Shown: positions 4,835-17,741 of the stretch, piece after piece
Layout: every line of letters starts with the position of its first letter
Position numbering within the stretch: position 1 is the first letter of the stretch
IMG/VR virus record: IMGVR_UViG_3300042291_000809
Location: 1-38,061 of that record
Reading direction: 5' to 3' (one strand)
DNA length: 38,061 bases
Source: a virus
The notes under the pieces: generated by a model
Database searches by the model: none
The model's input: only the letters and a program-made list of their open reading frames with translations
Told to the model about the DNA's origin: nothing
Program-made: the position numbers and the translations under genes

Positions 4835-5589
4835 TGGCAATATATTTAGGAGATAAAACATTACAAAGTACAAACTTTAATTCTTCGGGAGAAACTCTAA
4901 ATAAGTTTCATCTTCCGGATGATACACTATTGTTAAATCTAAATGCAACAAATTATAATGGTGGAACTTGGTATGATTCGGCACAGGGAATACCATTTCC
5001 AGTTGTTAATACAGCGCCACCAAAAACATCTTTAAGTGGCATACCATGTGTGGATTTTAATGATTCTGGATATTTTGAATCTTCTGTACCTAATGCAAAT
5101 AAAGTTGATATGAGAGGTGCATATACTTTAATAATGATTTATTATCACGAAGGATTTGTAGAAAGAAGAACAATATTTGAAAAAGCAGGAACATCTTACG
5201 CATCATATCAACAAGAATTAGCATGTACAATGGAAGTTGCTAATACAATGAGTTGGTATAGGGGATACCCTGATTATGATTACGGCAATTCCAAATCATA
5301 CACAACAAGTGCATGGAATATGATTGCAATCAATGGAAATGTATCTACTAATACTGGATTTTATTATAACAACGGTGTTTGGACATCTGGATATACAAAT
5401 AGAGTTGATGCTAATTTAGTAAGAAGTGGTGCAATAAGAGTAGGTAGTGGATATTCAGGAACGGTACAGGCCGGTTATTTACATGCATGTATGGTTTATG
5501 GAACGGATTTGAGCACTGATAAAATTAATCAAGTATACAACTACTATTCAAACATTTTTGGATTATTAGGAGTAACATTATATAGATAA
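4834..5589 (+). CDS. LamG-like receptor-binding protein, second copy
   Basis: A 251-residue protein. The N-terminus MAIYLGDKTLQSTNFNSSG is clearly related to those of the genes on either side and probably docks onto a shared platform. The remainder is a diverged LamG-type jelly roll: LNLNATNYNGGTWYDSAQG near residue 34, IPCVDFNDSGYFES, RTIFEKAG, WNMIAINGNVSTNTGFYYNNG and a closing VYGTDLSTDKINQVYNYYS helix, which is the common end of such domains. Similarity to the preceding protein is structural rather than close, so this is an old duplication or a separately acquired tip. The start ATG shares its A with the preceding stop. Role inferred: glycan binding at the fibre tip. Confidence 0.7.
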   Translation: MAIYLGDKTLQSTNFNSSGETLNKFHLPDDTLLLNLNATNYNGGTWYDSAQGIPFPVVNTAPPKTSLSGIPCVDFNDSGYFESSVPNANKVDMRGAYTLIMIYYHEGFVERRTIFEKAGTSYASYQQELACTMEVANTMSWYRGYPDYDYGNSKSYTTSAWNMIAINGNVSTNTGFYYNNGVWTSGYTNRVDANLVRSGAIRVGSGYSGTVQAGYLHACMVYGTDLSTDKINQVYNYYSNIFGLLGVTLYR

Positions 5590-5590
5590 T

Positions 5591-6364
5591 ATGGCAATTT
5601 ATATACAAGATAGTACAATCGATTCAAAATCATTTGGTCCAACTGGAGTATCATCAAATCCATTTACATTGGATGGTTCTACTTCTGCAAAAGCCGCACC
5701 TTCTGCAAATTGGTTAAGAAATAAATGTGGAATAAATACAAATGGTATGTATTGGTTAAATCCGGGTGGTTTAGGTGCAAATCAATTTTATTGTGATTTT
5801 ACATTTGATAATCAGAGAGTGTGGGTTATGATTGTTGCCAATAGAATTAATACAAATGGATTAAGTGGATTAACATACGCATCAGCAACTGCGGCACAAA
5901 TCAATACTACCGGAACATATAATTCATCTTTGGGATTTAATTTATGGGTTGGTTTACCTTATTGGAAACATTTGGGTAATACCATTTGTCAATATGTATC
6001 AACTTCAAATGTAAGTATATCGGGAAGTCATACAAAAAGAGCAAGATGGAAATTTAATGGATTTACATCTACATATGCATTTATTCACCCAAGAGATATA
6101 ACAGTTAATGTTGGAGCAGATAATCCTGGTTGGTATACATATCATGCCGTAAATGCTTATAATTTAACAACATATGACAATGACCAGGATGTTTATGTTG
6201 CCAACTGTTCAACATCGTATAATAATCAACCTTGGTGGTATGGGGGGTGTTGGGATGGTAATTATTTTGCTGGTAGTGGGTATGCCGACGGTCCGTATTG
6301 GGCAGGTTCGGCCGGTGATTATCACAATTATGGAGCAGCATTTTTATCATTTACAGATTTATAA
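5591..6364 (+). CDS. Fibrinogen-like (FReD) receptor-binding protein
   Basis: A 257-residue protein. The N-terminal MAIYIQDSTIDSKSF matches the docking start of the two upstream genes, but the body is a fibrinogen-related domain. Residues about 46-80 read Cys46...GMYWLNPGG...QFYCDF (Cys68), the GVYxIxP-G...VYCDM signature. Residues about 195-250 contain TYDNDQD (the Ca-site pattern of FReDs), Cys206, PWWYGGCWDGNYF with Cys220 (GGWWYxxCxxxNLNG pattern) and YADGPYW. Cys46-Cys68 and Cys206-Cys220 correspond to the two conserved FReD disulfides. In animals and tachylectins this fold binds acetylated sugars in a Ca-dependent way; that this one does so is inference. An additional Cys lies near residue 134. 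It completes a three-gene tandem of different lectin folds. Confidence 0.75.
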   Translation: MAIYIQDSTIDSKSFGPTGVSSNPFTLDGSTSAKAAPSANWLRNKCGINTNGMYWLNPGGLGANQFYCDFTFDNQRVWVMIVANRINTNGLSGLTYASATAAQINTTGTYNSSLGFNLWVGLPYWKHLGNTICQYVSTSNVSISGSHTKRARWKFNGFTSTYAFIHPRDITVNVGADNPGWYTYHAVNAYNLTTYDNDQDVYVANCSTSYNNQPWWYGGCWDGNYFAGSGYADGPYWAGSAGDYHNYGAAFLSFTDL

Positions 6365-6368
6365 TATT

Positions 6369-6608
6369 ATGGAAATAAGATTAAAAGAAATGAAACTTAA
6401 AATAATTAAGTTAAACAACACACAATATAAAAGAGTTATTGAAGATTTTGATGGTAATGAAATGTGGAATGGTGGTGAACAATATTATATTTACGATGGT
6501 GTTGTTGTTATGCAAAATGAAAATCTATTAGAATTGGTAGAACAAATGAAAGGATTACCATTTTGGAATATTGTAGAAGTGGTAAACGAATTATATCCAA
6601 TAGAATAA
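6369..6608 (+). CDS. Small hypothetical protein in fibre locus (79 aa)
   Basis: I take the ATG at 6369, 4 nt after the fibrinogen-like gene. The frame is open further upstream, but that part only overlaps the previous gene in another frame. The product, MEIRLKEMKLKIIKLNNTQY..., is 79 residues, charged and without Cys. It ends in a likely helix (LLELVEQMKGLPFWNIVEVVNELYP). A second in-frame Met at residue 8 is an alternative start. I recognise no domain. A tail-fibre assembly helper would fit the position, but nothing in the sequence shows it. Confidence 0.5.
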   Translation: MEIRLKEMKLKIIKLNNTQYKRVIEDFDGNEMWNGGEQYYIYDGVVVMQNENLLELVEQMKGLPFWNIVEVVNELYPIE

Positions 6609-6654: not shown

Positions 6655-9639
6655 ATGGCAGCTATATTTCAAATTAGAAGAGGTTCAGGATCAATTAATA
6701 CATCCATATCCGATGGTGAACTGTATTTACATAAGAGTTCGGGCTCTTTACAAGTTTCAGTTGGAGATGGAAATCCTGTAACATTAGCTAGATTAGATCA
6801 ACCAAATTCGGGTTCATTACGATTGGGTGGAGATATAACTGCATCAAACGCATATTTTAGTGGTGATGTTGCAATATCTGGAAACTTATTTTTAGGTAAT
6901 AATTCATCGGACAATATTTCTGCATTAGGAGTATTTACATCAAATTTAAGTGCAGGAACAACAAATACATATGATATCGGATCTACTACATCTGTTTGGA
7001 GAAATGTATATGCAACATCTATATCAGGGGCAATAGCAGCAACAAATGGTGTAATATCGGGTTCATCTCAACTTATATCAATATTAGATCCTTTAAACGC
7101 ATTTAGTAGTTCTCAATTAACACAAAATACCGCATTAGCAACTATATCTGGTTCTTTGATTTTAACTGCATCTGCAAATACGATATCAATAACAAATTTA
7201 AACGCATTTAGTGGCTCTCAATTAACACAAAATACTGCATTAGCAACTATAACCGGTTCATTGATTTTAACTGCTTCGGCAAATACTATATCAATAGCGG
7301 AATTAAACTTATTTAGTGGCTCTCAATTAACACAAAATACCGCATTAGCAACTATAACCGGTTCATTGATTTTAACTGCTTCGGCAAATACTATATCAAT
7401 AGCGGAATTAAATGGGTATTCATCATCTTTAAAAGATGCAATAACTGTCAGTGGTTCTGGTGGTTCATCTACTACTACTATTAAAGGAAATTTGGTAGTT
7501 CAAGGAACGCAAACCACAATTGATTCAACAACAATTCAATTAGGTGATAATATTATTGAACTGAATGGTACAGGTATTGCAAATGGTGGATTGGTAGTAA
7601 AAGACCCTACTGGTGCTTCTATTATTAGTGGTTCTCTATTATGGGATTCAACATTAGATTATTGGAAAGGTGGAACATTAGGAAACGAATCAAAAATACT
7701 TTTAGCAGGAGGTGATTCAGTAGTTTCATCATCTGCACAAATAACACCATTATTACCAACGGGCGTAGTTAGTGGTTCTCAACAAGTAACAAGTTCATTA
7801 GATTTAAGATATTTAATGATTGATGGTGATTCAGTAGTTTCATCATCTGCACAAATACTAAATTATAATGTATTCGCAACAACGGGTTCAAACTCATTTA
7901 ACGGAGGTCAATCAATAAATGGTAATCTATATTTAACCGGTTCTTTAATTCCAAGTGGTAACTTTGTATATGATTTAGGTTCAGCAACAAATGGATTTGG
8001 GGATGTTTATTTATCTTCTAGTACCGTTTATATGAATAACAACCCCATATTTGGTACAACCGATGTTGTTCCCGTACAGGTTGGCGATTATTTACAAGGC
8101 GGTATAGTTTATTATGTAGATACTGTAAATGGATTTTCTTATATAGTAAATAAAGATGATATTGGTGAGGTTGATTCTTCTAATTTTACAAGAGTAGCTG
8201 GTGCTAATAGTAGTGTACTTGGTGGTGGTATTGCAAATACAAATGCAATTACTGCATCTACGGGAGGACAACAAAACCCTGCAAAACTATGTAGTGATTT
8301 TAGTGGAAGTGGTTATACTGATTGGTATTTACCATCTACTAGAGAATTAGCAGTAATGGCAAGTAATACAAATTTGATGGGAGCAAGTTTAGCAGGCGTG
8401 AGATATTTTAGATATTGGTCATCAACCGCAGATTCAAACGCATCAAAAACTTATTATGCAGGTGATGATAAAACCGATGACCAACTGTATACAGGTTATA
8501 GTTATGGAAATAGTATAATGTATAGTGTTCCTGATAATCGTACATCTGTTGGTTATGTAAAAGCAGTTCGTAGAACAAATATAACAGAAATAATAAGAAC
8601 TTTATCTTTTCCAAACTTTAATTTTTCCGGTTCAATAAATGTTGCAGGAACTATTGATGGAATTGCAATTGGTGCGTTTGTAACACAATCAAATGAAAGA
8701 ATAACCGAATTAGAAAGTTCAAGTGTAAATTTAAATCTATACACTTCATCTGCAAATGCATGGAGTGGTACAATTGATGAAAGATTTACAACATTAGGTA
8801 ATTATACTGCAAGTGTAAATCAAACTACGGCGAGTTTAAATCAATTTAGTGCATCGATTAACTTCTTTTCATCATCTACATTTACCGAATTTTCAAATTC
8901 ATATGATGCAGTTAGTGAAAGTTTTGATTATAGAATATCAATTTTAGACCCAGGTAATTTAGATGATGTATTATTAGGATTAAATGCATTTACATCTTCG
9001 ACAAATGGTAGATTAAATAATATAGAAGCAGCAACTTCATCTTACGAAACAAAAGGTAGAGGAATTGTAAGTGGTTCACAACAAGTAATAGATTTATTAC
9101 CAACGGGAGTAATTAGTAGTTCATTTCAAATAGTTCCATTGCTACCTACGGGAGTAGTTAGTGGTTCATCTCAAATAGTTCCATTGCTACCTACGGGAGT
9201 AGTTAGTGGTTCAATTCAAGTATTAGGTGGTTCTACTGTTCATAGTGGTTCATCTGGTGATTATCAATTTAATTCAATTGGAGTTGGAACGGCAGCATCA
9301 ACAGTAGCAGGTGAAATTAGAGCAACCGCAGATATCACAGCATTTTACTCATCCGATATCCGTTTAAAAGAAAATATACACCCAATCCTACACGCATTAG
9401 AAAAAGTTAAATCAATTAGTGGTAACACATATAATTGGAAAGCGGGATTTGATGAAATACATTCTCACAAAGGAAATGATATTGGAGTAATTGCACAAGA
9501 AATTGAAGCGGTATTACCACAAATTGTAACAAATAGAGATAATGGGTATAAAGCAGTTCAATACGAAAAAATTATTCCATTATTAGTAGAAGCAATTAAA
9601 GAATTATCAGCAAAAATTGACAGATTGGAAAATAAATAG
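6655..9639 (+). CDS. Tail fibre with Lcl_C/DUF1566-like insert and C-terminal Peptidase_S74 chaperone (994 aa)
   Basis: Domains in order are: a short Mtd_N-like start (FQIRRGSGS...DGELYLHKSSG); a beta shaft with a triple 35-residue tandem repeat at residues 147-251; an LVVQGTQTTIDSTTIQLGD shaft module; a C-type-lectin-like Lcl_C/DUF1566 domain at about 474-642 (GGIVYYVD, GYTDWYLPSTREL, YWSST, VKAVRR); coiled/beta linkers with LLPTGVVSGSSQ repeats; and a Peptidase_S74 intramolecular chaperone from about 899. The S74 hallmark is Ser900-Asp901-x-Arg903-x-Lys905, then GVIAQEIEAVLPQIV. In this family the chaperone trimerises the fibre and cuts itself off just before that Ser, leaving a mature fibre of about 899 residues; cleavage here is inferred. 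The insert is a plausible receptor-binding head. It is preceded by a TATTTATA element. Confidence 0.85.
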   Translation: MAAIFQIRRGSGSINTSISDGELYLHKSSGSLQVSVGDGNPVTLARLDQPNSGSLRLGGDITASNAYFSGDVAISGNLFLGNNSSDNISALGVFTSNLSAGTTNTYDIGSTTSVWRNVYATSISGAIAATNGVISGSSQLISILDPLNAFSSSQLTQNTALATISGSLILTASANTISITNLNAFSGSQLTQNTALATITGSLILTASANTISIAELNLFSGSQLTQNTALATITGSLILTASANTISIAELNGYSSSLKDAITVSGSGGSSTTTIKGNLVVQGTQTTIDSTTIQLGDNIIELNGTGIANGGLVVKDPTGASIISGSLLWDSTLDYWKGGTLGNESKILLAGGDSVVSSSAQITPLLPTGVVSGSQQVTSSLDLRYLMIDGDSVVSSSAQILNYNVFATTGSNSFNGGQSINGNLYLTGSLIPSGNFVYDLGSATNGFGDVYLSSSTVYMNNNPIFGTTDVVPVQVGDYLQGGIVYYVDTVNGFSYIVNKDDIGEVDSSNFTRVAGANSSVLGGGIANTNAITASTGGQQNPAKLCSDFSGSGYTDWYLPSTRELAVMASNTNLMGASLAGVRYFRYWSSTADSNASKTYYAGDDKTDDQLYTGYSYGNSIMYSVPDNRTSVGYVKAVRRTNITEIIRTLSFPNFNFSGSINVAGTIDGIAIGAFVTQSNERITELESSSVNLNLYTSSANAWSGTIDERFTTLGNYTASVNQTTASLNQFSASINFFSSSTFTEFSNSYDAVSESFDYRISILDPGNLDDVLLGLNAFTSSTNGRLNNIEAATSSYETKGRGIVSGSQQVIDLLPTGVISSSFQIVPLLPTGVVSGSSQIVPLLPTGVVSGSIQVLGGSTVHSGSSGDYQFNSIGVGTAASTVAGEIRATADITAFYSSDIRLKENIHPILHALEKVKSISGNTYNWKAGFDEIHSHKGNDIGVIAQEIEAVLPQIVTNRDNGYKAVQYEKIIPLLVEAIKELSAKIDRLENK
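7093..7407 (+). repeat. Three tandem 105-nt repeats inside the fibre gene
   Basis: The units are 7093-7197, 7198-7302 and 7303-7407, each coding 35 residues on the pattern LNxFSGSQLTQNTALATITG plus SLILTASANTISI. By eye, units 2 and 3 differ at only about four bases, implying recent duplication, while unit 1 is more diverged. The array lengthens the shaft. Confidence 0.9.
9127..9213 (+). repeat. Tandem 45-nt duplication in the fibre gene
   Basis: Two copies (starting 9127 and 9172) encode a 15-residue unit QIVPLLPTGVVSGSS. They are identical over about 42 nt. A third, degenerate copy lies just upstream (LLPTGVISSSF). Confidence 0.85.
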
Positions 9640-9640
9640 A

Positions 9641-9648
9641 TATTTATA
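9641..9648 (+). promoter_or_regulatory. Putative late promoter element TATTTATA
   Basis: TATTTATA follows the stop of the 994-residue fibre gene by 1 nt and precedes the ATG at 9697 by 48 nt. Confidence 0.6.
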
Positions 9649-9696
9649 AACATACAATAATAATTTTATTAACGTACTAAAAAAAAGGTAAACTAG

Positions 9697-11217
9697 ATGG
9701 CACTTAAATTTAGACGTGGGACAACCGCACAACAATCAGGTTCGTTAGCATTTGGAGAACCATATGTAAATACTACATTAGGAACTCTACTAATTGGTGG
9801 AACGAGTGGTGATATCGTATTATCCGCAGGAGGTACAGGAAGTACCGGAAACTTTGGAGCAATATCTGGTTCAGGATTGGATATTACCGGAAACGCAAAC
9901 ATTGCAGGAAATTTAACATTAGGTGGGGCTATCACAATTGGTGATGCATCTGCTGATACTGTAAATGTTATAGCATCTTTAAGTTCTTCACTTATTCCAC
10001 AAACTACAAACGCATTTGATTTAGGGTCTGCAACTAAAATTTGGAAAGACCTTTATATTTCAACCGGTTCAATTAAATTTGTAGCAGGAACAACTGTTGT
10101 AAAAGAACTTAATTTAACAACATTAACTGCATTGGAAGCAGCAACCGGTTCAGCTAATGTATCCGTAACAAATTTAAATTCATTTACAAGTTCAATTGAT
10201 ACAACGATTAAAACTAAAATGAATACAGATGGTGTAGTTTCGGGTTCTTCTCAAATTACATACGCAAATATATCTTCTATACCAGCCGGAATTATTAGTG
10301 GTTCATCACAATTAAGTGGAACTACGATTACGGATTTAACTGTTGTTAATTTAACAACAGTTAATCAAACTGCAAGTGTTGTATTTAGTAGTGGTTCTAA
10401 CCGATTTGGTGACTTTGGAAATGATACACATGAGTTCACTGGTTCAGTTCAAATAAGTGGTTCACTTACAACAATAGGAGCATCAACTGCAACATCATTT
10501 AATGGAGCAATGAATGCAACAAATGGTGTAGTAAGTGGTTCATCTCAAATTACATACGCAAGTATCTCTTCTATCCCAGCAGGAATAGTAAGTGGTTCAT
10601 CTCAAATATTAGGAGGAAGTGGATTAGTATCAGGTTCTTCTCAAATTACATATGCAAGTATCTCTTCTATCCCAGCAGGTATAGTAAGTGGTTCTACACA
10701 AGTAACTCCATTATTACCAACCGGTGTAGTTTCGGGTTCGGCTCAAATAACTTTAAGTTCAACAACTGGATATGGTACTGTTATTAACCAAAACTTATTA
10801 ACTACATCGGATGTTAGGCACAATTCATTGGGAGTTGGTATGGCTGCATCAGCTACCACAGGCAGAATTGATGCAACTAATGATATTGTTGCGTTCTCAT
10901 CTTCGGATATTCGTTTCAAAGAAAATATTGTTCCAATCCAAAACGCATTAGACAAAATTAGAAAGATTAGTGGTAATACTTACGATTGGAAAGAAGAGAA
11001 TAAAATTGAGCACGGATATGAAGGAAATGATGTTGGAGTAATTGCACAAGAAATTGAAGCAGTTCTTCCACAATTAGTTCAGACAAGAGAAAGTGGATTC
11101 AAAGCAGTTAAATACGATAAGTTAGTTGCATTACTAATTGAAGGTATTAAAGAACAACAATTACAAATAGAGCAATTAAGAATAGATCTAAATAATTCTG
11201 TAAATAAAGGTTTATAA
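9697..11217 (+). CDS. Tail fibre with C-terminal Peptidase_S74 chaperone (506 aa)
   Basis: Begins MALKFRRGTTAQQSGSLAFGEPYVNT, a compact Mtd_N-like start. The shaft has YDLGSATKIWKDLY-type strands (here FDLGSATKIWKDLYIS) and two near-identical modules (VSGSSQITYASISSIPAGIV) 96 nt apart. From about residue 402 there is a Peptidase_S74 chaperone: Ser403-Asp404-x-Arg-x-Lys408, GNDVGVIAQEIEAVLPQLV, and a final coiled coil (KEQQLQIEQLRIDL). The domain is closely similar to that of the upstream 994-residue fibre, so the two are paralogues with different heads and lengths. No lectin-like insert is present. Auto-cleavage before Ser403 is expected from the family but not shown. A TATTTATA element precedes it, and the glycosyltransferase gene follows after 1 nt. 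Confidence 0.85.
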   Translation: MALKFRRGTTAQQSGSLAFGEPYVNTTLGTLLIGGTSGDIVLSAGGTGSTGNFGAISGSGLDITGNANIAGNLTLGGAITIGDASADTVNVIASLSSSLIPQTTNAFDLGSATKIWKDLYISTGSIKFVAGTTVVKELNLTTLTALEAATGSANVSVTNLNSFTSSIDTTIKTKMNTDGVVSGSSQITYANISSIPAGIISGSSQLSGTTITDLTVVNLTTVNQTASVVFSSGSNRFGDFGNDTHEFTGSVQISGSLTTIGASTATSFNGAMNATNGVVSGSSQITYASISSIPAGIVSGSSQILGGSGLVSGSSQITYASISSIPAGIVSGSTQVTPLLPTGVVSGSAQITLSSTTGYGTVINQNLLTTSDVRHNSLGVGMAASATTGRIDATNDIVAFSSSDIRFKENIVPIQNALDKIRKISGNTYDWKEENKIEHGYEGNDVGVIAQEIEAVLPQLVQTRESGFKAVKYDKLVALLIEGIKEQQLQIEQLRIDLNNSVNKGL

Positions 11218-11218
11218 T

Positions 11219-12217
11219 ATGTACGATGTTTACTATACAACCGCAGGAGGACCGTGGTTTAATAGTGGTGCGGATATGTGGGTATCACACTGGATAGAAG
11301 AGGTATCGCCTGAATTGAAGGTAAAACCTCTTCTATTATTTCATAGAAAAAAGCCTGATAATTATGAAGAGTTTCCAATTGAAATTGACCACATTTGGGA
11401 AATATCAGAAGATAAAATATTAAAAATATTTGAAGGAGCTAGAAAGATACATATACTACACGGTCATTACACACCAACAACCGCAATACATCAATATTTA
11501 GAAAAAATTGATTCAATAGTATTTCACAATTTAACAAAAGTGTCTTTAATAGCACAGATGCAAAAAGAAGAATACTTGCATTGGTATGGTAATTGGGAAT
11601 ATGAATCAGAAATGATTGATAAAATTAAAAATAAAATTTGGATAGGGTTATACCATTTTCCATACAAAACGGATAATTTACATCATATTTCAAATAATTA
11701 TACATTTACACAAAATAAAGAACTTTCAAACTCAACTGAATTAGGATACGCAGCGAGAGTGGAGGGTAGAAAGAATGTTGAATATATGGATGGATTGGGT
11801 GGATTTATTTCTACCAATTCAGAAACATTCAACAAATATTATAAAAAGAAATATGGATACAAATTTGAAAAAACAAAAGTTTACAAATTTGATTATAAAT
11901 ATAAAGAAAGGTTCTATGGACTTGATTGGGGAATCTCTCATTCTTGTTTTGAATATGAACCATTCGGATATGGAATTTTTGAAGCAGTGGATTGGGGAAA
12001 ACTTCCAATACTACATGAAAAATGGCACGTACCACTTGATTACAAATACAAAGCGAGTGATGCGGTATCGTTTAGAGAGACCTACGAAACGATTTGTAAC
12101 GATGATTATGAAACCCGTAAAAAGGAATTTCAAAAACTAAAAGATTGGATGATTAAAAACTTTTCAAACAAAGATGAATGGAAAGGAAAACTTTTAGATA
12201 TTTATAACGAAGAATAA
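11219..12217 (+). CDS. GT4-like glycosyltransferase (GT-B fold)
   Basis: A 332-residue protein. The C-terminal half has the retaining GT4 nucleotide-sugar signature: Glu247-Pro-Phe-Gly-Tyr-Gly-Ile-Phe-Glu255 is an exact E-x7-E motif, followed by DWGKLPILHEKWHVPLDYK, which parallels the A-C-G-x-P-V-I segment of the family. The middle segment GYAARVEGRKNVEYMDGL resembles the strand-turn after the inter-domain linker ('GR...KN'). The N-terminal half begins MYDVYYTTAGGPWFNSGADMWVSHW, like the glycine-rich acceptor-domain loop of GT-B enzymes. It has no signal peptide or membrane segment, so it acts in the cytoplasm. Being wedged between fibre genes, it may glycosylate Ser/Thr-rich fibre proteins. 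Modification of host glycans is the alternative. Substrates are not visible. Confidence 0.7.
   Translation: MYDVYYTTAGGPWFNSGADMWVSHWIEEVSPELKVKPLLLFHRKKPDNYEEFPIEIDHIWEISEDKILKIFEGARKIHILHGHYTPTTAIHQYLEKIDSIVFHNLTKVSLIAQMQKEEYLHWYGNWEYESEMIDKIKNKIWIGLYHFPYKTDNLHHISNNYTFTQNKELSNSTELGYAARVEGRKNVEYMDGLGGFISTNSETFNKYYKKKYGYKFEKTKVYKFDYKYKERFYGLDWGISHSCFEYEPFGYGIFEAVDWGKLPILHEKWHVPLDYKYKASDAVSFRETYETICNDDYETRKKEFQKLKDWMIKNFSNKDEWKGKLLDIYNEE
12199..12206 (+). promoter_or_regulatory. Putative late promoter element TATTTATA inside the end of the glycosyltransferase gene
   Basis: TATTTATA lies 21 nt before the ATG at 12228, nearly the same spacing as the element before 6655. It overlaps the last codons of the upstream gene, so chance is a possibility. 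Confidence 0.45.
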
Positions 12218-12227
12218 CACATAAATA

Positions 12228-13973
12228 ATGGCAAGAACTAATTTATCTTTAGGAAATTTATACAGAGCAGTAAGTGGTTCGGTAAGAACAAGTCAAGCAG
12301 TTTCAATCGGTGGATTGGGTGGTAATGCTGCAAATAGTGCATTTACATCATTCGCAACAGATGCCATTACTGTAACAGTTCCAACATTTACATATATAGT
12401 TGAAAGTACTGCTGAAAACGCACAATTTTCATTTACAACAACTGGTTCACTTTTTTATTCTAAAGTCCAACAAGTTACAAACAATTATACTTGTTCATTT
12501 GGTAATGCAAACTTTACGGCAGGAACTAGAACGTTTGGAACAGGACCAACCATAATTCCATTAACACCTGCGGCAGTTGCAGCTGCAAACTATTCGGAAG
12601 CTAGTTCAGTATTATCAATGCAATATGCAGATGGATATAATTTGAATGCAACAAATTATGGTATATTAACTACAAAGACTTTATACGCAGTAGATGTTTA
12701 TAATACAATAAACCAACCTGATTTTTGTTTATTATTTGGTACAAAAGTAAAATTATCAAATGGTAGTGATATCAATGTTGAAGATTTAAATGTTGGAGAT
12801 GTAATTAAAGCATGGGTGCCAGCCGGATTACCCGATGAATCACAACCATTAGATTCTGAAAATGTAGATTGGAGATTTTATCAATTAGAAAGTAATTCAG
12901 GTTCTTATACCGAAGTAGTAGTTGAAAATTTAGTATTTAACTTTGCAAGTGGATATTACAACATAAATGATGGGTTGATTCAATCAACCGGAACACACCC
13001 ACTTTGGGTATTTGATAATGAAATTCAAAAATATCATTTCAAAAATGTAGAAAATATATTTCCTGGTGATTTAATTGTTAAATTTACCGAAGAAGGTGGA
13101 GTAGAAGAAATTGAAGTATATGATATAGCACAGGTAATTGATGATATTGAAATTGTAACTATAAATGTAGAAAATGCCGATGTGTATTTGGCAAATGGTA
13201 CAATATCACATAATAAGGGAACAGCAACCCAACCTTATATTCCATCTTCTGGATTAAGAATGTATTTAGAACCTGCTAAAACTGCATCATTTGCATCATT
13301 AACACTACCATCAACGGGAACACCATCGGTGGATGTATTGGATATGAGTGGTTATGGTACGGGTGTTAGACCTGGAGCACAGGCACCTCTATCATTAGCA
13401 AGTTCAAATCCATCATACAATAATGGTGCAAGTAGAAAAGAAAGATATTATTCTTTTGATGGTGGTGATTTATTCTATAAAGATACTGCATCTAATATCA
13501 ATGGTGGTATAGCTCAATTTAATACTAACACCGGTACAATTCATTTATGGATTAGACCTACAACAACATTAGGTACAACTACAAGACACATTTTTGACTA
13601 TGGTGGGTTTTATGGTATAGCAATTGAATCATCCGATAGTTCTACTTTAAATAGAGTAAAATTCTATGGTAGTACATTGGGTAATAGTGCACAATTAACA
13701 ACTTCATTACCATCAAACGTTTGGTATATGATTTCAGCAACTTTCCAACCATCTGGAACTGTAACGGTTTATGTAGATAAAACATCAGTAGGAACATTTA
13801 CCGCAAATGCATTCACTGCACCATCATCTACTAACTATGTAACAATAGGTAGTAATAGTGCAAGAACAACGTTTTGGAATGGACAGATTGGGGCAGTATT
13901 ATTCTACAACACATTACAAACAGCCGCATTAGTAGGGCAAGTATATGATTATTTCTCACCAACATATAAGTAA
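12228..13973 (+). CDS. Hint (intein-like) domain inside a LamG fibre/lectin protein
   Basis: A 581-residue protein in three parts. (1) Residues 1-166 are Ala/Thr/Ser-rich beta sequence of unknown type. (2) Residues 167-329 are a Hint domain: Cys167 starts block A (CLLFGTKVKLSNG...LNVGDVI), Thr254-x-x-His257-Pro is block B (STGTHPLWVF), and NADVYLANGTISHN with His328-Asn329 is the C-terminal block. (3) Residues 330-581 contain a LamG-like domain (GTIHLWIRP, SNVWYMISATFQPSGTVTVY, TFWNGQIGAVLFYN). At 163 residues the Hint unit is mini-intein size with no room for a homing endonuclease. The +1 residue is Lys330, not Cys/Ser/Thr, so standard protein splicing is not expected. This resembles A-type bacterial intein-like (BIL) domains that cleave or splice unconventionally. 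Cleavage would release the LamG part; that is inference. Confidence 0.85.
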   Translation: MARTNLSLGNLYRAVSGSVRTSQAVSIGGLGGNAANSAFTSFATDAITVTVPTFTYIVESTAENAQFSFTTTGSLFYSKVQQVTNNYTCSFGNANFTAGTRTFGTGPTIIPLTPAAVAAANYSEASSVLSMQYADGYNLNATNYGILTTKTLYAVDVYNTINQPDFCLLFGTKVKLSNGSDINVEDLNVGDVIKAWVPAGLPDESQPLDSENVDWRFYQLESNSGSYTEVVVENLVFNFASGYYNINDGLIQSTGTHPLWVFDNEIQKYHFKNVENIFPGDLIVKFTEEGGVEEIEVYDIAQVIDDIEIVTINVENADVYLANGTISHNKGTATQPYIPSSGLRMYLEPAKTASFASLTLPSTGTPSVDVLDMSGYGTGVRPGAQAPLSLASSNPSYNNGASRKERYYSFDGGDLFYKDTASNINGGIAQFNTNTGTIHLWIRPTTTLGTTTRHIFDYGGFYGIAIESSDSSTLNRVKFYGSTLGNSAQLTTSLPSNVWYMISATFQPSGTVTVYVDKTSVGTFTANAFTAPSSTNYVTIGSNSARTTFWNGQIGAVLFYNTLQTAALVGQVYDYFSPTYK

Positions 13974-14002
13974 TAAAAATGTTGTTTTGGAATAAAAGTT
14001 TA

Positions 14003-14010
14003 TATTTATA
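14003..14010 (+). promoter_or_regulatory. Putative late promoter element TATTTATA before the tail sheath gene
   Basis: TATTTATA lies 33 nt before the ATG at 14044, in a 70-nt gap between the fibre locus and the tail operon. Confidence 0.65.
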
Positions 14011-14043
14011 TGGAGATAATAAAAATTAAACAATAATAATACA

Positions 14044-16284
14044 ATGGCAGAAAAAATCGTATCACCTGGTGTTTTTACAAAAGAAAATGACCTTTCATTC
14101 TTACAACAAGGGGTAGCTGAAATAGGTGCAGCGTTTATAGGTCCTTTTAAAGAAGGGCCAGTAGTTCCTACAATTGTTAATACTCAAAGTGAATTTGAAA
14201 ATCTTTTTGGGGCAGTTGATGGAACATATTATACCCCATTAGCGGTACAAAATTATTTAAGAGAAGCAGGTACTGCAACTATTTGTAGAGTAGCTGGTAT
14301 TGGTGGTTACACCGAAACCGCTCCTTTATTATTAACAGCAACTTCAGGTTCAGTATCAGCATCTTTGGGTATTCTTTTCAATACATCTACAAACTCAAAT
14401 GCAGGTTTATTCGGAGCACAAGTTAGTGGTTCTCAAACCGGAGCAGGTGATTTTAAATTATTAACAAATAGTGGTAGTTTATCATTATCGGCATCTTTAG
14501 ACCCGTCTGATACAAACGATATTGAAGCAGTATTTGGAACATCGGCATTAGGTTCAAAAACCGCATATGTTTATGGGTTTTTTAAAAATTCATCTATAAC
14601 ATTTGATGCAAGTTGTTCATCTTCGGTAACTGTATTAAACTCACAGGATTTTACAGATGATGCACAAGAGGCATTAACTCCAATGATTAAATCTCAAACT
14701 ATTTCCGGTGAAAGATATGACCTTTTCCAATTTGAAACATTGGGTGTTGGTAATACTGCTAATACTAAAATTAAAATTGGTATTACAAATATTAAAGCAG
14801 CGGGTAGTGTAAATGGTACTGATTATGGTACATTCACATTAGTTGTTAGAGATTTTGCTGATACAAATAAGAAAAAGAATGTATTAGAAACTTGGTCAAA
14901 TGTAAATTTAGACCCTAATTCTCCAAACTATATTAGTAGAGTAATTGGTGATAGAAAATTATCAATTGATTTAGATGGTAAAATAACTGAAACAGGTGAT
15001 TGGGTTAATAATTCAAAATATGTTAGAGTTGCCAACTTAAACGAATCGGCTCCTGTACAAGCAGTACCATTCGGACACACCGCATACTCTTTACCAATAT
15101 CAGCATCAGCATTAATTGGTTCTGCGATTCCATCTGTATCATTTGTAAGTGCATCAGCAACACAATATGGTGGTATTGATTTAGATAACAATACTGATAA
15201 CATAATCTACTTAAAACCAATTCCAACCGGAGCAGGTGTAGGTTCTAATTCAGTATTTGGATTAGATGCATCAAATGGTGGTTCATTATCAGTAGGTTCA
15301 ACTTCCGCACAATTCGTTGTAGCATTCCAAAATGGATTTGATGGTAACTCACCAGCAACTCCAATCAATAAAGGTGCTGATATTAACGCAGGAAACTCAC
15401 AAGGTTTTGATTTGACAAATTCAACCTCAAGTGGTTCGGTAGCATATAACAAACTAATTTCCGCATTATCTAATTCTGACGAGTTTGATATTAATATGAT
15501 AGTAGCACCCGGTGTTATTAGAAGATTACACTCATCAGTTGCAACAGATATATTGGATTTAGTTGAGCAGAGAGATGATTGTTTCTATATAATGGATACA
15601 ACATCACAAAATGATTCCGTATCGCAAGTTGTAACCCAAGCAGGGGCAGTTGATTCAAATATGGCTGCAACTTACTACCCTTGGATTAAAACAATAGATT
15701 TAAACACTAATAAGTTAATATCAGTACCACCATCAGTATTACTACCTGGAGTATTTGCGGCAAACGATAGAGTAGCAGCAGAATGGTTCGCACCAGCAGG
15801 TTTGAATAGAGGTGGATTAGTAGGAGCAGTTAGTGTATTGAATAGATTAACTCAATCTGAAAAGGATACATTATATGAAGGAAAGGTAAACCCAATCGTT
15901 CAGTTCCCTGGACAAGGAATTGTAGTATTTGGACAGAAAACCTTACAAGATAAGCCATCTGCATTAGATAGAATCAACGTAAGAAGATTATTATTAACTG
16001 TTAGAAAGTATATCGCATCTACTTCTAGATATTTAGTATTTGAACAAAATACATCTACAACTAGAAATAGGTTCTTAAATATCGTAAATCCTTATTTGGA
16101 ATCAATCCAACAAAGACAAGGTTTGTACGCATTTAGAGTAGTAATGGATGAATCCAATAATACACCGGATGTAATTGATAGAAATATCCTAAGAGGAGCT
16201 ATTTACTTACAACCAACTAAAACGGCAGAATTTATTCAAATTGATTTTAACATCTTACCGACTGGTGCAAGTTTTGGATCATAA
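14044..16284 (+). CDS. Contractile tail sheath protein (T4 gp18-like)
   Basis: A 746-residue protein. The start, VSPGVFTKENDLSFLQQGVAEIGAAFIGPFKEGP, matches the T4 gp18/Phage_sheath_1 opening (SPGI-x-x-x-E...A-x-V-G-x-F-x-x-G-P). It is followed by TIVNTQSEFENLFG and the LREAGTATICRV strand, as in sheath domain I. The C-terminal third (RVAAEWFAPAGLNRGGL, NPIVQFPGQGIVVFGQKTL, INVRRLLLTVRKYI) is the conserved sheath core ending in a subunit-interlocking strand. The central region is variable and Ser-rich (protruding domains). It is slightly longer than T4 gp18 (659 aa). The tube gene follows directly, the usual sheath-tube order. Sheath subunits polymerise around the tube and contract during DNA delivery. 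Confidence 0.95.
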   Translation: MAEKIVSPGVFTKENDLSFLQQGVAEIGAAFIGPFKEGPVVPTIVNTQSEFENLFGAVDGTYYTPLAVQNYLREAGTATICRVAGIGGYTETAPLLLTATSGSVSASLGILFNTSTNSNAGLFGAQVSGSQTGAGDFKLLTNSGSLSLSASLDPSDTNDIEAVFGTSALGSKTAYVYGFFKNSSITFDASCSSSVTVLNSQDFTDDAQEALTPMIKSQTISGERYDLFQFETLGVGNTANTKIKIGITNIKAAGSVNGTDYGTFTLVVRDFADTNKKKNVLETWSNVNLDPNSPNYISRVIGDRKLSIDLDGKITETGDWVNNSKYVRVANLNESAPVQAVPFGHTAYSLPISASALIGSAIPSVSFVSASATQYGGIDLDNNTDNIIYLKPIPTGAGVGSNSVFGLDASNGGSLSVGSTSAQFVVAFQNGFDGNSPATPINKGADINAGNSQGFDLTNSTSSGSVAYNKLISALSNSDEFDINMIVAPGVIRRLHSSVATDILDLVEQRDDCFYIMDTTSQNDSVSQVVTQAGAVDSNMAATYYPWIKTIDLNTNKLISVPPSVLLPGVFAANDRVAAEWFAPAGLNRGGLVGAVSVLNRLTQSEKDTLYEGKVNPIVQFPGQGIVVFGQKTLQDKPSALDRINVRRLLLTVRKYIASTSRYLVFEQNTSTTRNRFLNIVNPYLESIQQRQGLYAFRVVMDESNNTPDVIDRNILRGAIYLQPTKTAEFIQIDFNILPTGASFGS

Positions 16285-16334: not shown

Positions 16335-16823
16335 ATGGCAGAAGTATTAGAGTTTGATAAAATGTTCTATACCAATTTTGAACCAAAATTAGGAAACAGG
16401 TTCATAATGGAAATTGATGGTATAGAATCATATTTGGTAAAAACTGCTAACAGACCGACTTTCACATCTGAAATCGTTGAGTTAGACCACATCAACGTAA
16501 GAAGGAAGATTAAAGGTAAATCCAATTGGGATGATGTAGAAATTACATTATATGACCCAATCGTTCCATCTGGAGCACAACAAGTAATGGAGTGGATTAG
16601 AACATCACACGAATCATTAACAGGCAGAGATGGATACGCTGCGTTCTATAAGAAAGATATTACATTTTACTTATTAGGACCGGTAGGTGATAAGGTTGAG
16701 CAGTGGACATTAAAAGGAGCGTTTATCTCACAAGCAAACTTTGGTGAATTAGATTGGGCTTCAAACGACCCGTTATCAATTTCATTAACTTTAACTTATG
16801 ATTTCGCAATTTTAGAATACTAA
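16335..16823 (+). CDS. Tail tube protein (T4 gp19-like)
   Basis: A 162-residue protein, the same length as T4 gp19 within a few residues. The pattern LGNRFIMEIDGIESYLVKTANRPTF...EIVELDHINVRRKIKGKSNWDDVEITLYDP is the tube-monomer signature. QQVMEWIRTSHE and LKGAFISQANFGELDWASNDPLSISLTLTYDFAIL complete the two beta sheets that hexamerise into the tube. It lies between the sheath gene and the chaperone/tape-measure genes and ends at a terminator, so it is probably made in large amounts from its own upstream element. Confidence 0.95.
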   Translation: MAEVLEFDKMFYTNFEPKLGNRFIMEIDGIESYLVKTANRPTFTSEIVELDHINVRRKIKGKSNWDDVEITLYDPIVPSGAQQVMEWIRTSHESLTGRDGYAAFYKKDITFYLLGPVGDKVEQWTLKGAFISQANFGELDWASNDPLSISLTLTYDFAILEY

Positions 16824-16925: not shown

Positions 16926-17741
16926 ATGGAAGAAAACATAGAACAACAAGTTACGAGAGGATTGAATACAAATACCACTCATTCACAAAAAAATTACCCA
17001 TTCCCAACCGAAGTTATCAGTTTACCATCAAAGGGGTTGTGTTATCCAGAAAACTCACCACTTTCAAAAGGTGAAATTACAATAAAATTGATGACAGCCA
17101 AAGAAGAAGATATACTAACTTCGACTAACTTAATCAGAAAAGGTATTCATTTGGATAAATTATTGGAATCGGTTGTAGTAGAATCCGGTGTTAATATAAA
17201 TGATTTGTTAATTGGAGATAAGAACGCAATATTGGTTACATCTAGGATGTTAGCATTTGGTCCAGAGTACCAAGTAACAGTGAGTGACCCAAGTGAGGGT
17301 ACACCTGTTGAAGTAACGGTAGACCTTTCTAAAATACAAATAAAAGAGATTGACGAATCACAGTTAAATAGAAAAAATGAATACGATTACATTCTACCTA
17401 AATCAAAAGCATCAATTAAATTTAAGTTATTAACGCATGGTGATGAAATTGCTATTAATAAAGATATTGAGGCAAGTGAAAAGACTTTAAAACAGAGTAA
17501 TGAGATAACAACCCGATACCGTAGGATTATAGTTGAAGTTGATGGTAATAGAGATTTTGGACATATAAGTAATTTTGTATCAAACCGATTGTTAGCTGGA
17601 GATTCTAAAGCATTGCGTAAGCATATTTCAACATTAACTCCTGATTTAGATTTAAAATTTGAATATGAATCACCATTCACCGGAGAAACGGAGGCTCTTC
17701 GTATACCTTTTGGGGTAGACTTTTTTTATCCTACCGAGTAA
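16926..17741 (+). CDS. T4_baseplate (gp26-like) family protein, probable tail assembly chaperone
   Basis: A 271-residue protein. Residues about 28-110 carry the family pattern ISLPSKGLCYPENSPL...ITIKLMTAKEEDILTSTNLI...LLIGDKNAILVTSRMLAFG. This is the hallmark of the T4 baseplate-hub gp26-like family (Pfam T4_baseplate, from memory). The C-terminus ends SPFTGETEALRIPFGVDFFYPTE. Position argues for a tail-assembly chaperone: it lies after tube and before tape measure, the slot of gpG/gpGT-type proteins. A second reading frame begins to overlap it near its end (see 17719-17940). No Cys-rich or membrane segments are seen. Family membership is fairly secure; the choice between hub component and chaperone is inference. 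Confidence 0.75.
   Translation: MEENIEQQVTRGLNTNTTHSQKNYPFPTEVISLPSKGLCYPENSPLSKGEITIKLMTAKEEDILTSTNLIRKGIHLDKLLESVVVESGVNINDLLIGDKNAILVTSRMLAFGPEYQVTVSDPSEGTPVEVTVDLSKIQIKEIDESQLNRKNEYDYILPKSKASIKFKLLTHGDEIAINKDIEASEKTLKQSNEITTRYRRIIVEVDGNRDFGHISNFVSNRLLAGDSKALRKHISTLTPDLDLKFEYESPFTGETEALRIPFGVDFFYPTE

Follow-up and report, generated by a model that had tools for sequence, protein, structure and literature searches.

A predicted GT-B-fold glycosyltransferase encoded beside a Hint-domain protein in the tail locus of an uncultured virus

To our knowledge, few systems of phage virion glycosylation are known. In mycobacteriophages, glycans have been reported in the virion at the C termini of capsid and tail-tube proteins (Freeman et al. 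2023, as recounted in passages of PMC12619734 and PMC12894461). Such modification is not general, because staining of ten other phages, as described in a passage of PMC12894461, revealed no glycoprotein. A second point of comparison is the moraphages, with genomes of 200 to 307 kb, in which four core orthogroups are called glycosyltransferases in PMC12619734, an article that also discusses both DNA and virion glycosylation. The terms "intein" and "Hint domain" are absent from that article, and a search of the open-licence PMC literature found, going by titles, no on-subject paper joining a Hint domain, a phage, and a glycosyltransferase.

The DNA analyzed here, referred to as the window, is a viral stretch of 38,061 nucleotides (IMG/VR record IMGVR_UViG_3300042291_000809, positions 1 to 38,061). 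Its glycosyltransferase (GT) gene is encoded with virion genes, and the feature it shares with the mycobacteriophage systems is a phage-encoded sugar modification of virion proteins, which we propose for the window. The difference is that the reported mycobacteriophage glycans are on capsid and tail-tube proteins, whereas the candidate acceptor in the window is a Hint-domain protein or a tail fiber. The likeness to moraphages, which is a matter of resemblance only, lies in very large phages that carry several GT genes; two contigs related to the window, 238 and 245 kb long, encode further GTs.

The glycosyltransferase gene and its relatives

The GT gene occupies positions 11219 to 12217 on the plus strand, where an open frame of 332 amino acids runs from ATG to TAA and the opposite strand contains stops throughout. 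Directly 5' lies an S74-chaperone tail fiber gene (9697 to 11217, plus strand; PF13884, E = 1e-17), itself preceded by a second S74 fiber gene (6655 to 9639, plus strand; PF13884, E = 3.1e-15) in which there is also a weak internal match to Lcl_C (E = 6.4e-5, under the Pfam cutoff). On the 3' side are a gene for a protein with Hint and LamG domains (12228 to 13973, plus strand), the tail sheath gene (14044 to 16284, plus strand; PHROG 23, E = 5.9e-68), and the tail tube gene (16335 to 16823, plus strand), which was identified by matches to annotated phage tubes. Consistent with the spacing given in the first-pass annotation, the fiber gene ends 1 nt before the GT gene and the Hint-LamG gene begins 10 nt after it. 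Sheath, tube, and fiber genes surround the GT gene and have the same orientation. Scans of positions 9600 to 14200 for promoters (28 matches, versus 25.7 in shuffled sequences) and for terminators (2, versus 1.4) gave results at the level of the shuffles.

Relatives of the window GT were found in 213 stretches of viral contigs. Clade 1 is defined as the best 80 of these 213 stretches, which are 81 to 100% identical to the window GT over nearly the full length; clade 2 comprises 29 loci at about 45% identity, and clade 3, at 36 to 40% identity, comprises 8 viral loci together with one contig from a metagenome-assembled genome (MAG) of Flavobacteriales. A repeat search with GT alignment A1 returned the same 80 contigs as the first search. 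When the GTs of the window and of locus L243 were compared by tblastn to 50,697 annotated phage records, the sole record with this GT was LR756508, a 484-kb metagenomic phage whose GT is 34% identical to that of the window; used in turn as a query against the viral contigs, the LR756508 GT found no relative. A scan of genome collections yielded two MAG contigs with the GT, one of which, L244, ends inside the gene.

Across 18 picked clade-1 loci, the GT had a median pairwise dN/dS of 0.124; the values were 0.066 (tube), 0.249 (sheath), and 0.332 (Hint-LamG) in the same loci and 0.215 for the gene at 16926 in 14 of the 18. The GT is therefore slow evolving for a fiber-locus gene, and because relatives occur in 213 viral stretches and dN/dS is about 0.12 in the 18 picked loci, it is not a chance open reading frame. 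In an unrooted tree of 36 GT sequences, a branch with 100/100 support separates the Hint-linked GTs from a second GT, termed paralog B and described below; the place of LR756508 in the tree is unsure, because its long branch meets that of paralog B and drew a program warning. The closest annotated tubes are those of Microcystis phage Mel-JY01 (60.5%), LR756508 (55.6%), Flavobacterium phage immuto (48.1%), and RM378 (42.9%); the nearest is thus from a Microcystis phage, whereas one clade-3 contig sits in the Flavobacteriales MAG.

Predicted fold and conserved residues

Family searches with the window GT protein gave no confident assignment. A Pfam scan returned no match, NCBIfam returned LytR alone (E = 1e-4, 22 bits versus a cutoff of 375), the best PHROGs match spanned 14 residues (E = 0.034), and the best match among PDB sequences had an E value of 0.53. 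A 31-row GT profile found nothing among PDB sequences, and family scans of all 31 aligned members produced scattered weak matches only, including PF00534 in 2 of the 31 (best E = 0.088, below the Pfam cutoff).

An AF2 model was built on the 31-row alignment, which spans the three clades and in which rows L248 and L252 start at a tblastn or chosen limit instead of a checked start codon. This model, which replaced a poor one (pLDDT 48) built on 17 close sequences, had a pLDDT of 88.6 and a pTM of 0.87. Its best VIA-align match was sucrose-phosphate synthase 6kih (Z = 23.2; rmsd of 3.6 Å over 316 residues), in a superposition covering model residues 1 to 332, and the next GT-B matches were HepE 4xsr (Z = 22.7) and BshA 6d9t (Z = 22.6). 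Foldseek was in agreement with a GT-B fold (8x3q, E = 2e-9). The predicted fold bears out the original call of a glycosyltransferase, and the conclusion that the gene encodes a GT-B-fold enzyme is well supported by the model.

With these GT4-type enzymes (6kih, 4xsr, and 6d9t), the model shares a GT-B fold over its whole length (Z of 22.6 to 23.2) and, weakly, the register of an E-x7-E motif. The window GT differs from them in having no Pfam or PDB sequence match, in the Gln or Asp that replaces the second Glu outside clade 1, and in its place in a phage tail locus. Membership in CAZy family GT4, whose enzymes perform retaining transfer from a nucleotide sugar, would call for both a GT-B fold, which the model predicts, and sequence similarity in the form of a Pfam Glycos_transf_1 or Glyco_trans_1_4 match above cutoff, which the window protein lacks. 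Compared by hhalign to six GT4 proteins, the GT profile gave a weak alignment (probability of 13%, E = 0.0022; the highest probability among 20 column-shuffled controls was 0.59%, and a Hint alignment gave 0.12%) that placed the GT motif in register on the GT4 E-x7-E. This comparison serves as supporting evidence only, because the set was small and partly motif selected: the six proteins were obtained from eleven loci tried in two MAGs, two of them contain unreadable residues, and a script picked them by an E-x5-9-E-[AS] pattern, which favors aligning that motif. Because no Pfam match exceeded the cutoff and the hhalign match was weak, the enzyme is named GT4-like here and is not filed in GT4.

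The Glu residues of E-x7-E have known roles in GT4 enzymes. In the window protein, Glu247 and Glu255 are both in place (EPFGYGIFE, within an E247-PFGY-x-IF-E255 motif at 11957 to 11983, plus strand). E.{7}E as a mere pattern can be found at four places in this protein, so its presence alone is weak evidence. The description of the motif as an exact E-x7-E applies to the window and its clade but not to the wider family; all 31 aligned relatives have E247, while position 255 is Glu in the window's clade only, Gln in clades 2 and 3 and in LR756508 (E-x7-Q), and Asp in paralog B (E-x7-D). Other residues are invariant in all 31 sequences. For example, G17 and D19 are fixed in an N-terminal Gly-rich loop (T7 to D19; 11237 to 11275, plus strand), whose role we take from GT4 enzymes, as are R180, E182, R184, and K185 in the segment R180-x-E182-x-R184-K185 (11756 to 11773, plus strand), which by analogy with GT4 enzymes we presume to be the probable donor-phosphate-binding segment, and H241.

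These residues bear on the idea that the GT-B protein has no catalytic activity and is retained to assist assembly of the Hint protein. Replacement of the second Glu by Gln or Asp outside clade 1 would fit such a role, but because all 31 sequences keep the first Glu, the Arg/Lys cluster, and H241, we regard it as very unlikely. The structural matches likewise raise the possibility of a DNA glucosyltransferase like AGT or BGT of phage T4, as T4 AGT (1y8z) superposes on the model with a Z of 19.6 and T4 BGT is among the Foldseek matches. However, T4 AGT scores below many non-DNA enzymes, the window gene is placed in a tail locus, and a thymidylate-synthase-type gene (PF00303), the one gene of a hydroxymethyl-pyrimidine pathway that was looked for, is present in one of eight long relatives, none of which is known to be complete. 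Modification of DNA is accordingly scarcely probable.

The Hint protein as neighbor of the glycosyltransferase

The 581-amino-acid product of the gene 3' of the GT, its probable partner, matches PHROG 38766, "virion structural protein" (E = 3.4e-6, residues 155 to 331), and carries a LamG (concanavalin A-like) domain at residues 429 to 567 (13512 to 13928, plus strand; PF13385, E = 2.2e-15). Conserved residues, the PHROG 38766 match, tblastn, and a weak Pfam match in a relative place a Hint domain at C167 to N329, followed by Lys330 and Gly331 (12726 to 13220, plus strand). Pfam detected no Hint domain in the window protein and sees one only in that of L243 (PF01079, E = 0.0032, below cutoff); the best tblastn match of the domain to phage proteins labeled "intein domain" had an E value of 2e-5. 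Among 107 distinct homologs, which are what remained of 178 collected after removal of duplicates, C167, H328, N329, and K330 are present in 107 and T254 and H257 in 106. The window domain therefore has the Cys1, T-x-x-H, and terminal His-Asn of Hint and bacterial intein-like domains (107, 106, and 107 of 107, respectively) and differs from them in the next residue, which is Lys in 107 of 107 homologs and in none Cys, Ser, or Thr.

Inteins need Cys, Ser, or Thr directly after His-Asn for splicing. Because the Lys found here cannot be the usual nucleophile, ordinary splicing is not expected. An active Hint domain is nonetheless predicted, because C167, T254, H257, H328, N329, and K330 are conserved, and the sequence makes cleavage or an unusual transfer a more likely outcome than splicing.

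The most constant neighbor of the GT is this Hint protein and not the S74 fiber. All 81 clade-1 loci (80 contigs plus the window copy) have a Hint match that begins within 900 nt 3' of the GT, a count that includes two loci with odd Hint starts, L041, where the beginning of the Hint gene is missing after the GT stop, and L046, where the frame is broken inside the Hint gene. The Hint gene is the next one after the GT in 29 of 29 clade-2 loci, and it lies 8 to 33 nt 3' of the GT in 9 of 9 clade-3 loci, where the Hint domain ends the protein; for L247 and L250, in which the listed Hint frame overlaps the end of the GT, a conserved internal Met was taken as the start. Of 158 GT-bearing loci, among which some contigs are counted repeatedly, 151 have 10 or 11 nt between GT stop and Hint start, and the other seven comprise gaps of 7, 4, −14, and −14 nt (negative values are overlaps) and three loci that were not measurable (L041, L046, and L082). 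With the Hint protein as the query, a GT was found directly 5' of Hint-LamG in 22 of 23 loci, the exception (L086) holding just 40 nt on that side. Even in LR756508, where the tube is 87 kb away, a Hint gene (E = 4.1e-18) ends 70 nt 5' of the GT. Where the lists were cut to the best-scoring matches, they comprise the nearest relatives only, and the loci counted are far from independent, because GT and Hint are inherited together inside clades 1 and 2.

Within clade 2, the GT is 81 to 88% identical and the Hint core 61 to 75% identical in most loci, and the parts of the Hint protein flanking the core are 33 to 45% (N-terminal) and 26 to 33% (C-terminal) identical in most. In L245 (6457 to 7773), L247 (6826 to 7986), and L251 (2694 to 7946), the gene 5' of the GT encodes a further Hint-like domain at its end, so that three of the eight viral loci in clade 3 have the GT flanked by two Hint proteins, as judged by eye and, for L251, also by profile.

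Presence and absence of the two genes were compared using the tail tube as the query, keeping the best 80 of at least 588 matches, among which 24 newly cut loci held more than 5.3 kb of upstream sequence. GT and Hint are both present in 23 of these 24 loci, and L151 holds neither. Eight of the 24 contigs had already come from GT or Hint queries; the 16 others divide into 15 with both genes and L151 with neither. The whole records of the L151 contig (31.5 kb), Mel-JY01, immuto, and RM378 contain tube homologs but no GT and no Hint. Among loci with readable neighbors, no GT of the Hint-linked clades was found without a Hint gene. Distant Hint domains occur in 55 phage records, and the three of these that were examined (NCTB, Yoloswag, and Afa-NA1) are without this GT. 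In a sample that is small and related, this joint presence and absence of GT and Hint is suggestive.

Fibers, glycan genes, and candidate acceptors

The first-pass annotation had proposed that the enzyme glycosylates the adjacent fibers. In clade 1, a fiber match ends within 250 nt 5' of the GT in all 78 loci with enough sequence, and an S74 domain ends within 400 nt 5' of the GT in 69 of 69 clade-1 and 25 of 25 clade-2 loci, these being the loci among 80 and 29, respectively, that hold 400 nt of upstream sequence. Such counts are what would be expected if the enzyme O-glycosylated Ser/Thr-rich S74 fibers and the Hint gene were a mere bystander, a reading also favored by the S74 domain found 1.3 to 5.5 kb 5' of the GT in six of eight clade-3 viral loci and by the position of paralog B directly after virion genes. 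However, an S74 domain lies within 400 nt in none of the eight clade-3 loci, and none was found in the 8 kb upstream of the GT in LR756508, making nine of nine readable distant loci without a directly adjoining S74 domain, and in these the Hint gene still adjoins. The composition of the fibers also argues less strongly than it had appeared to. Ser plus Thr makes up 22 to 27% of the four window fiber genes' products versus 18 to 23% of five proteins encoded 5' of the sheath in immuto, a phage without this GT; this difference is moderate, and "exceptionally Ser/Thr-rich" was an overstatement. SGSSQ-like repeats occur in three of the four window fibers and are absent from the small number of L151, immuto, and Mel-JY01 proteins taken for comparison. 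Taken as an account in which the Hint gene has no part, fiber glycosylation is unlikely. What survives of the original proposal is an enzyme that is a GT by predicted fold and is co-oriented with virion genes; what does not is the fiber as its constant direct partner.

Paralog B, a GT of 324 to 328 amino acids, was found in four of eight long contigs (L277 to L280). Its start overlaps the end of a fiber-like gene of 1,271 to 1,758 amino acids by 4 nt in three of the four, and in the fourth it lies 13 nt after a 514-amino-acid virion-like gene. Judged by eye, the genes 3' of paralog B look like those that Pfam assigns to methyltransferases and GT-A enzymes in clade 3, and two others on that side in L278 have no Pfam match. 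A Hint profile found nothing beside paralog B, so that this second GT, present in four of the eight long contigs after fiber-like genes and without an adjoining Hint, is an observation against the Hint pairing. Because the long contigs were chosen for the known GT, the figure of 8 of 8 for that gene says nothing about frequency. Because an S74 domain lies 1.3 to 5.5 kb upstream in those six clade-3 loci and paralog B follows giant fiber genes, fibers are still possible targets, and O-glycosylation, the putative linkage, is possible as well.

Among the contigs, L156 and L159 are apparent near copies. Further Glyco_trans_1_4 or Glycos_transf_2 matches, three of them below cutoff, occur elsewhere in the long relatives, namely in L256 (G003); L259, L261, L272, and L275 (G001); L257, L271, and L273 (G002); and L258, L260, L270, L274, and L276 (G004).

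Several distant homologs lie beside genes for glycan modification. In L243, genes beside the GT match the Pfam families Methyltransf_24, Radical_SAM/SPASM, Glyco_transf_7N/7C, and Glyco_transf_25; one protein of this locus (5085 to 6506) combines a group-7 glycosyltransferase with a LamG domain. One gene beside the GT matches Gly_transf_sug in LR756508, and one matches Sulfotransfer_4 in L246. In L244, the neighbors match DegT aminotransferase, CTP_transf_like, LicD, Hexapep, and Methyltransf_24, along with a sulfotransferase below cutoff; this contig, in which the GT homolog is cut by the contig end, is binned as Pacearchaeota and is possibly viral. These matches come from a scan of 20 neighbor proteins, of which one is the L243 Hint protein and six had no match, and glycan neighbors in the other clade-3 loci were judged by resemblance of their open reading frames only. 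Among the window proteins scanned (Pfam and PHROGs), the GT had no further glycan gene beside it, which weighs against the reading favored below.

An alternative target is a molecule of the host, be it surface polysaccharide, LPS, or a small molecule, which the enzyme would alter, for instance, to block superinfection. The nearest folds include LPS, teichoic-acid, and small-molecule enzymes, and one homolog beside sugar-biosynthesis genes is in an archaeal-MAG contig that breaks off within the GT gene, leaving a single side readable. In those phage loci that were read, the GT nevertheless lies among tail-locus genes and keeps its Hint neighbor, which makes a host target quite unlikely. Modification of a virion protein is the likeliest use of the GT, because of its predicted fold, its co-orientation with virion genes, and its distant relatives beside glycan genes.

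The reading thus shifts from O-glycosylation of fibers to glycosylation of a virion protein, probably with the Hint protein as partner. We favor, with some reserve, an enzyme that draws on a nucleotide-sugar donor to glycosylate a virion protein encoded in the tail locus, for which the co-encoded Hint protein is the likeliest acceptor or partner. We infer catalysis, donor, timing, virion-protein acceptor, and Hint processing along the following lines. The GT would be expressed together with the tail genes, as its spacing suggests, and would attach sugar from a nucleotide donor to a product of the tail locus, the Hint protein being the likeliest. Either before or after glycosylation, Hint would cut next to the invariant His-Asn-Lys and part the N-terminal domain from LamG, and the neighboring fiber may be a further acceptor.

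A more ambitious proposal is that GT and Hint form an obligate two-part machine in which glycosylation is coupled to autoprocessing of the tail protein, which we consider rather improbable. In its boldest form, the Hint thioester would, in hedgehog fashion, fix a sugar acceptor or the following Lys to the C terminus of the N-terminal domain (about 166 residues), and the GT would build or cap the glycan.

Whichever protein is modified, a conserved enzyme family missed by Pfam and PHROGs occurs in over 200 uncultured viral stretches and stays beside a Hint gene down to about 35% identity. Because the enzyme and its candidate substrate are named, the question can be tested without a host. Sugars, if present, would be relevant to the way in which these phages attach to glycan-coated hosts or escape recognition, and if the two-part machine proves true across the Hint-linked clade, it would represent a new route to virion glycoproteins.
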